DNA from: a bacterium
Lineage (GTDB): Bacteria; B130-G9
Length of the DNA stretch: 18,553 nt
Reading direction: 5' to 3'
NCBI GenBank assembly: GCA_021160245.1
Contig: JAGHCW010000065.1
Coordinates: 1-18,553, forward strand
In this document: positions 3,614 through 5,048 of the stretch, piece by piece
Layout: the number at the start of each line of letters is the position of its first letter
Numbering within the stretch: the first letter of the stretch is position 1
The notes under the pieces: model-generated
Databases searched by the model: none
Told to the model about the DNA's origin: nothing
Seen by the model: only the letters and a program-made list of their open reading frames with translations
Position numbers and translations under genes: made by a program

Positions 3614-3662
3614 TCTGACATTCTCGAGCGTGGGATTTGTAGCATCATAATTCTTGAAATAG

Positions 3663-4020
3663 CAGGAGTTTTCGTATTTTAAGTTTGTGATTGGTTGTGT
3701 TGTTGGCTCCGGGGCCTGGTTTCGGTGAACAAAGAAGTGGAGTTGAGGTGATGCGATGTCTCGGTTCCCTGAAAGGGGACTACAATAGTAGCCGTAGGCG
3801 GAAGCCTACGGACTTGGATTGCGCCGGTATCCTCACTGCCCCGATAGGGTTTAACAGCCCCATCTACAGGGCTATGTTCAGCCCCTGCACGGCTGAGGAG
3901 CTCTTTTGTTCGCCCCTGATTCCGTAGGCTTCCGCCTACGGCTACCATTGTTCATCCCTTTCAGGGATACAGGAAGAACGCCTTCAACAGAGCAGATCCG
4001 GGAACGAATACGAAAACTCC
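3663..4020. mobile_element. MITE-like non-autonomous element with 15-bp terminal inverted repeats
   Basis: Perfect 15-bp inverted repeats lie at the ends: AGGAGTTTTCGTATT (3664-3678) and its reverse complement (4007-4021). They are flanked by an identical 11-bp direct repeat TCTTGAAATAG at 3652-3662 and 4021-4031, as expected of a target-site duplication. The last repeat base and the TIR base at 4021 coincide, so the exact boundary is uncertain by 1 bp. The interior encodes no transposase or credible protein; short ORFs on both strands merely read through the palindromes. This looks like a small element mobilised in trans by a transposase elsewhere. The family cannot be named from the ends. 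The coexistence of TIRs, target duplication and an internal REP pair is unusual. Confidence 0.65.
3766..3967. repeat. REPIN-like inverted pair of REP palindromes
   Basis: Two 46-bp arms (3766-3811 and 3922-3967) are reverse complements at 41 of 46 positions, separated by 110 bp. Each arm contains a REP-type unit: the tetranucleotide GTAG (3788-3791; CTAC at 3942-3945 on the other arm) at the foot of a perfect hairpin, CCGTAGGC-loop-GCCTACGG. The loop is GGAA at 3800-3803 and TTCC at 3930-3933. The outer arm ends are the palindrome CCCTGAAAGGG and its mirror CCCTTTCAGGG. GTAG-headed hairpins in inverted pairs are the classical form of REPs spread by RAYT (Y1/IS200-like) transposases. No RAYT gene is in this window. 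The spacer holds two further short hairpins (AGCCC/GGGCT and CAGCC/GGCTG). Confidence 0.7.
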
Positions 4021-4034
4021 TCTTGAAATAGGGG

Positions 4035-4064
4035 TTGACGTCTGGACGATGATCGGATTATAGT
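4035..4064 (+). promoter_or_regulatory. Candidate sigma-70-type promoter
   Basis: TTGACG (4035-4040), an 18-bp spacer and TATAGT (4059-4064) each differ from consensus at one base. The -35 box begins 4 bp after the right-hand 11-bp repeat of the MITE-like element. The next supported gene starts about 500 bp downstream, so it may drive a long leader of the receiver-domain gene or an untranslated RNA. Seen by eye only. Confidence 0.4.
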
Positions 4065-4538
4065 ATAACTTAGTGTTTATTTATTTCAGGGCGGGTCAAC
4101 CGGACGTGCTTATTGAGGCGTCTCCGGCCGGCCTTCGTCAGGAATCTTTTGCCTGAGGAGAAAGGGCGATGTCGTGCGTTACCTGACTATTCCAGCCTCA
4201 AGCGCCGTATGCGTGGTGGTGCTGGTACCGTCTTCTCTCTCCAATGGCTCCTTCTGATTCCTGCTCGCTCAATATTCTGTATTGTTTTCTGCTAGTATGG
4301 GTTTTGCTTGGATCAATGCTTTGCCTCCGTCCTCGGTACGCCGAGCGCGAATGCAACGCATGCCAGAAGGACGCAAGCGGAGGCTCTTGCAAGCGGCAGT
4401 TTACGCTGAGTGGAATGGTTCCGTAATGTTGTATTCCGGGGCGGAACTTTTGGTTGGTTTGATCGCATTATGACGCATATTTCGCCATAGCGTTGCGATT
4501 GCCAGTCGCATTCAGGATCAAACCGGGATACATCGGAC
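4065..4538. other. Non-coding stretch with no recognisable gene
   Basis: Open frames on both strands here are short, lack convincing ribosome binding sites and resemble no family I know. A strong SD (GAGGAG at 4155-4160) precedes an ATG at 4169, but that frame encodes only MSCVT before a stop at 4184. The stretch also contains the foldable segment listed separately at 4323-4384. It may be a long 5' leader or decayed sequence. Confidence 0.4.
4323..4384 (+). other. Candidate branched RNA structure
   Basis: GCCTCCG (4323-4329) pairs with CGGAGGC (4378-4384), enclosing the hairpin CTCGG-TACG-CCGAG (4332-4345) and a small ATGC-AAC-GCAT hairpin (4351-4361). This gives a three-way-junction shape. 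It lies downstream of the candidate promoter at 4035-4064 in gene-free sequence. It does not match a riboswitch consensus I recognise; I compared it with the c-di-GMP GEMM motif and it lacks the required core. It could be chance pairing. Confidence 0.2.
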
Positions 4539-4562
4539 ATGAACCGGAGAAAGGCCAGTAAG

Positions 4563-5048
4563 ATGAACGTTGGGCATGAGATGCCGCAAAATTCTGAGCA
4601 AAAGGGAATCGATGCCGCATGCGCGAAGTCCTCAGACCATTGGAGAATTCTGATCGTAGATGACGAGCAGATTCTCCGTGAGATATGGCAAGATGCACTG
4701 CAGGACGAGGGATATGATGTTGCAACCGCCAAAGACCCAGAGGAAGCGCTTAAGATGCTCGACTCTAGGGAATTTGATCTAGTCCTTCTGGACCAGGTTT
4801 TCAAGGCAAGCGCATTGAATGGACTTGACGCGCTCCGCGAGATGAATACTCGCCGATATTCTGCAGCAGTCATAATGATGACGGGCTATACGGACGCAGA
4901 GCCCAACATCGTCAAGGCCGTCAGAGAGGGGGCCTATCGGCACACAATTAGAAAGCCGTCAACGCTTACGGAAATCATGGAGATCGTTCGCAATTGCCTC
5001 CTAGAGCGCAGTAGGGAAACAAGAGAATCCGTCGCTCCCGAGCTCTAA
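4563..5048 (+). CDS. Stand-alone response-regulator receiver-domain protein
   Basis: A single receiver domain of 161 residues with no output domain. The acidic pair is D33-D34 in ILIVDDEQ, the phospho-acceptor is D77 in LVLLDQVF, the switch Thr is T107 in MMTGYTD and the conserved Lys is K131 in IRKP. It should accept phosphate from a histidine kinase and act by protein contact, like CheY/Spo0F-type proteins (family knowledge; partner unknown). The segment after D77 is two residues longer than usual and lacks the typical Pro. The start at 4563 is preferred because AGAAAGG lies 8 bp upstream; an in-frame ATG at 4539 has poorer spacing. The first 25 or so residues look unstructured. No kinase gene is adjacent. 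Its 3' end overlaps the convergent membrane gene by 4 bp. Confidence 0.85.
   Translation: MNVGHEMPQNSEQKGIDAACAKSSDHWRILIVDDEQILREIWQDALQDEGYDVATAKDPEEALKMLDSREFDLVLLDQVFKASALNGLDALREMNTRRYSAAVIMMTGYTDAEPNIVKAVREGAYRHTIRKPSTLTEIMEIVRNCLLERSRETRESVAPEL

Follow-up and report, generated by a model that had tools for sequence, protein, structure and literature searches.

A short transposon of Candidatus Coatesbacteria probably inserted just upstream of sigma70-type promoters

At one locus of the stretch of DNA analysed here (the window; 18,553 nucleotides of contig JAGHCW010000065.1), two perfect inverted repeats are bordered by direct repeats, which raises the questions of whether a mobile element lies between them, what would move it and why it sits where it does. 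We read the feature as a MITE cross-mobilised by the IS4-like DDE transposase of a related 1.44-kb IS and inserted immediately upstream of sigma70 -35 boxes, a reading to which, jointly with the oriented insertion of the element family described below, we assign a probability of about 0.88. The locus does contain a short transposon; the observation made in the preliminary description was confirmed and its MITE interpretation supported. That description overlooked where the insertion lies, namely at a promoter's upstream edge. The element and its borders are as follows.

Positions 3663 to 4022, plus strand: non-autonomous 360-bp MITE whose right end faces the promoter (from the inverted repeats, a 96% identical second copy and full-length copies ~75% identical in two sister-genus genomes)
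Positions 3654 to 3662, no strand: left copy of the probable target duplication, TTGAAATAG (boundary set from other copies)
Positions 4023 to 4031, no strand: right copy of the probable target duplication, TTGAAATAG (boundary set from other copies)
Positions 3664 to 3678, plus strand: left terminal inverted repeat, AGGAGTTTTCGTATT
Positions 4007 to 4021, minus strand: right terminal inverted repeat
Positions 3766 to 3967, plus strand: internal inverted repeat forming a central hairpin, with 47-bp arms at 3766-3812 and 3921-3967

The 15-bp inverted repeats are perfect, as originally described, and are the only two exact matches to the terminal repeat in the window, for which 0.38 matches with up to three mismatches are expected by chance. 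Both copies of the reported 11-bp direct repeat TCTTGAAATAG are likewise present (3652-3662 and 4021-4031), but base 4021 belongs both to this repeat and to the right inverted repeat, so that the 11 bp cannot be wholly target duplication. Since the left AGGAG has a C before it in 27 of 30 two-ended copies and CTCCT has one after it at 90% of the right junctions, the limits that fit best are C-AGGAG...CTCCT-C (3663-4022); the position of the element had been given correctly, whereas its borders required this adjustment. The target duplication in the window is thus probably the 9-bp TTGAAATAG, the extra TC being a coincidence at this site. A clean duplication, mostly of 8-11 bp (mode 9), was found around 13 of the 30 two-ended copies and was absent from the other 17, perhaps because of their age. 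No transposase was found inside the window element among its ORFs or with Pfam, in agreement with the preliminary description, and an Rfam search of the element returned no family.

Folded as RNA, the whole element reached -173 kcal/mol (z -9.4 against shuffles), and the central palindrome is retained in the ~75% identical copies of another genus, with seven pairs altered on both sides; these two-sided changes mostly represent one split between the genera. In genome G002, of a third genus, a CCGTAGGC-type hairpin module occurs alone (L058, L061 and L069), the element ends not being numerous there, and the palindrome may therefore lead an independent existence. A 2-kb segment of the window genome (C94:3762-5793; L003/L007) was considered as an autonomous element and rejected, as it is a MITE with an unrelated nested IS. 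This IS has the ends GAGGCTGTCTAATAAGT and sits in the central hairpin of a window-type MITE, and a type-B MITE on contig C163 of the same genome carries, in a similar place, a remnant with ends resembling those of the GAGGCTGTCTAATAAGT IS; the hairpin may thus be a target of GAGGCTGTCTAATAAGT-ended IS.

Judged by sequence similarity, the element has dozens of relatives in the window genome and in two further genomes of its family. The window genome (3.43 Mb in 244 contigs) gave 48 BLAST matches, a figure that counts pieces and hairpin self-matches, including a second full-length copy (C47:10384-10741; 96% identity) bordered by a perfect 11-bp duplication of its own, CTGCTTGGGAT. Among 40 further genomes searched, matches were obtained in three, all of the same family (Candidatus Coatesbacteria): two genomes of the sister genus contain full-length copies ~75% identical, and a third, of another genus, contains the hairpin part only. 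Matches to the ends with up to two mismatches numbered 66 and 46 in the two sister-genus genomes, compared with 4 and 3 for the reversed pattern, i.e. an excess of ~15-fold. This excess and the different 11-bp duplication of the 96% copy bear out the original judgement that the repeats are not due to chance. Other MITE types in the window genome have only their ends in common with the window element. A second type of ~220-230 bp (L033, L049, L054, L084 and L085; on contigs C29, C25, C82, C125 and C157) shares only the terminal repeats, has CATCTCGTGG and ATATCTTGCTGGG as inner ends and, in its complete copies, is also followed by promoter-like boxes downstream.

Unoccupied counterparts of two copies in genome G001 (on C93 and C81) were found in the congeneric genome G003. 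The C93 copy has the 9-bp GCTCATTCA on either side; the G003 counterpart GCACATTCA is single. A TTGACT-17-GATATT promoter is present in both the filled G001 allele and the empty G003 allele, and so preceded the insertion at this site. The empty sites suggested earlier as a check therefore exist for two sister copies; for the window copy itself, none was found among the genomes searched. Another MITE copy in G003 (L056, C1:6278-6634) lies ~110 nt from the G003 empty site (L131/L202; G001:C93, G003:C1), indicating separate insertions into one intergenic region in the two species.

A full IS with the same ends, also proposed as a check, is present in G003 (L079:746-2187; ~1,440 bp) and as half copies in the window genome, where left and right halves lie at contig ends and no intact IS was found in the assembly. 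The G003 element has a single ORF (898-2172; 424 amino acids) that stops at the inner boundary of the right inverted repeat. Its relation to the MITE is seen in one further feature.

Positions 3663 to 3750, plus strand: left subterminal region common to the IS leader (from aligning the DNA to the G003 IS and to two IS left ends of the window genome)

Because these ~90 bp of the MITE left end match the IS leader, the IS is likely to be both source and mobiliser of the MITE. With a transposase-bearing element sharing its ends, many copies, differing duplications and two empty sites, the MITE-like transposition first proposed is supported. The transposase matches Pfam PF01609 (DDE_Tnp_1), with D103, D192 and E312 (spacings 88 and 119) and a complete YREK signature, Y305-(2)-R308-(3)-E312-(6)-K319. 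It scored far below all cut-offs of the curated NCBIfam IS4 and IS701 models (best 49 bits vs 150; also 45.9 vs 115 and 44.8 vs 160), as did the relatives tested, and is therefore called IS4-like, with no membership of a named IS4 group; the transposase group as a whole seems unnamed. A single-sequence AlphaFold model of the transposase had a pLDDT of 33; sequence searches of the PDB and of PHROGs gave no match, viral contigs contained no relative and plasmids yielded one weak partial match. In the transposase leader (L079:820-906) a hairpin hides the ribosome-binding site, as if to guard against transcription entering from outside, and similar inverted repeats occur in the distant relatives L187 and L191. 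A ribosome-binding site hidden in the leader is known for IS10, IS50 and IS231.

What marks the insertion sites is the DNA beyond the right end, where the following features were found in the window.

Positions 4035 to 4040, plus strand: predicted -35 box of the promoter targeted here, TTGACG, lying 13 nt beyond the right inverted repeat
Positions 4059 to 4064, plus strand: predicted -10 box of the same promoter, TATAGT, after a spacer of 18 nt
Positions 4539 to 5048, plus strand: response-regulator gene (Pfam Response_reg), the first recognisable gene downstream of the promoter

Outward from the right end, TTGAC recurs ~12-13 nt away and is the strongest flank signal. We scored a -35 box as a match of at least five of six bases at 8-19 nt from the right end, using 82 unique right junctions, some right and left ends being typed by eye from inner sequence; the boxes are predicted, being scored against the E. 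coli consensus. By this measure, a -35 box was present at 57 of the 82 right junctions and at 2 of 62 left junctions (Fisher 1.5e-17), compared with 5.6% of 20,000 random positions, and the spacing was 12 or 13 nt at 51 of the 82; at the remaining 25 right junctions a good -35 box was absent. Both boxes were found together at 39/82 right junctions, 1/62 left junctions and 0.6% of random positions. At insertion sites, a -10 box followed the -35 box in 68% of cases; the corresponding figure for -35-like words elsewhere was 14% in intergenic and 8% in coding DNA (P = 2e-18), an enrichment which argues that real promoters, and not the word alone, are chosen. The nearest long ORF points away from the element in 28 of 34 cases on the right side and in 14 of 30 on the left. 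The family thus appears to insert in one orientation, its right end coming to lie ~13 bases upstream of a sigma70-type -35 box. The window promoter (4035-4064) would be linked to the response-regulator gene ~475 nt downstream. The intervening ~475 nt (4066-4538) contain no clear gene and had no match in Rfam, and could possibly be a non-coding RNA or a long leader.

A similar layout was found among distant relatives of the transposase, which are 27-46% identical, come from at least five other phylum-level groups and have different end sequences (GGGGAAACTCC and similar). A promoter-like box pair lies 14-16 nt from the right end, as we define that end, in seven of eight such relatives (combined P = 7e-7), and no promoter was seen at the eighth (L189). 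At several, a good -10 box accompanies a weak -35 box (TTGCCC, TTGCGC), and duplications were found at three of them (11-bp CGAAGATTGGA at L186, 8-bp ATCGCATG at L187 and 12-bp TGGTTCAAATCC at L188). DDE_Tnp_1 is the only domain in the L079 transposase and in five of six relatives, the sixth adding a sub-threshold DDE_5. Further searches around these relatives gained one partial homolog, owing to the few genomes available in those phyla. The same layout in relatives with other ends suggests that the habit belongs to the transposase clade and not to the host.

Could the transposase simply read the short word TTGAC, neither RNA polymerase nor the remaining promoter sequence playing a part? The -35 word is indeed the strongest flank signal, but -10 boxes at promoter spacing accompany it far more often than they accompany other intergenic -35-like words (the 68% and 14% above), the closest genes point away from the right end, and the weak -35 boxes beside several distant relatives come with good -10 boxes; we therefore hold this explanation to be unlikely. 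Insertion might instead be random, with survival only just upstream of promoters, either because insertions are harmless there or because the right end aids transcription. The right end is A-rich and could serve as an upstream promoter element, and MITEs are usually kept in intergenic DNA only. However, the tight spacing, the facing of the promoter by the right end only and the nearly identical spacing kept by elements of other phyla with different ends make such selection less likely, and much intergenic DNA that would tolerate insertion is unused; altogether we regard it as distinctly improbable. An intergenic repeat of regulatory or structural function, in the manner of REP or ERIC, which is not moved by a transposase and has its border repeats by chance, would fit the strong conserved internal palindrome, but is scarcely credible beside the duplications that differ from site to site, the empty sites and the transposase-bearing element with the same ends.

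In the reading that we prefer, the IS4-like transposase of the 1.44-kb IS would move the MITE in trans, cutting and pasting it into DNA immediately upstream of a -35 box. Insertion would create the 8-11 bp duplication and place the right end toward the promoter. The site would be chosen at integration and not by later selection, probably through RNA polymerase bound at the promoter or through the DNA of the promoter, and RNA polymerase may be what is recognised. We would give even odds to a broader proposal, namely that an IS4-like clade in several little-known phyla targets the sigma70 RNA polymerase-promoter complex, having evolved this independently of Mutator-like elements, and that its MITEs have carried one hairpin element to the upstream side of dozens of Candidatus Coatesbacteria promoters. 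Promoter targeting was previously described as special to two Mutator-like groups; the same habit in an unrelated DDE transposase group, if true, would have arisen at least twice and would offer a second, independent set of proteins in which the promoter-sensing part could be sought. For an uncultured phylum, the MITE insertions would moreover pick out a number of active promoters, whose upstream control regions they could alter.

Like bacterial MITEs generally, the element is short, has no notable ORF, shares its ends with a full IS and contains a strong palindrome; to our knowledge, most bacterial MITEs are not known for promoter targeting at a fixed spacing. The text of the IS4 family description (PMC2266710) gives as hallmarks Y-(2)-R-(3)-E-(6)-K and D-D-E spacings of 60-110 and 100-150, and the partner IS resembles this family in its YREK motif, its spacings of 88 and 119, its single ORF and a duplication of about one helical turn (mostly 8-11 bp), but differs in missing the curated model cut-offs (best 49 bits vs 150). 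Assigned to the IS4Sa subgroup are ends of the form CA------T, lengths of 1150-1750 bp and duplications of 8-10; in these features the present IS, with ends CAGGAGTTT (5'-CA, T at position 9), ~1,440 bp and a duplication mode of 9, is like IS4Sa. The text of the description also mentions conserved target arms for some IS4 elements and never promoters. No report of promoter targeting by IS4-like elements was found in the open literature searched. TnGBS/ISLre2 (p-MULT 3) and part of ISKra4 (p-MULT 4) insert with the right end facing the promoter, 15-17 bases upstream of the -35 box; these elements are all Mutator-like, and contact with RNA polymerase has been proposed for them (Guerillot and others, PMC3942029). 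The present element shares with them the oriented insertion by the right end, the fixed distance upstream of sigmaA-type promoters and the unequal use of its two ends. It differs in the absence of a Mutator-like domain, its transposase having only PF01609 DDE_Tnp_1 and the IS4 YREK motif, and in its distance, which is ~12-13 nt when counted from the inverted repeat and 11-12 when counted from the terminal C, as against 15-17 for the p-MULT elements. The present element thus functions like the p-MULT elements and is not a member of them.
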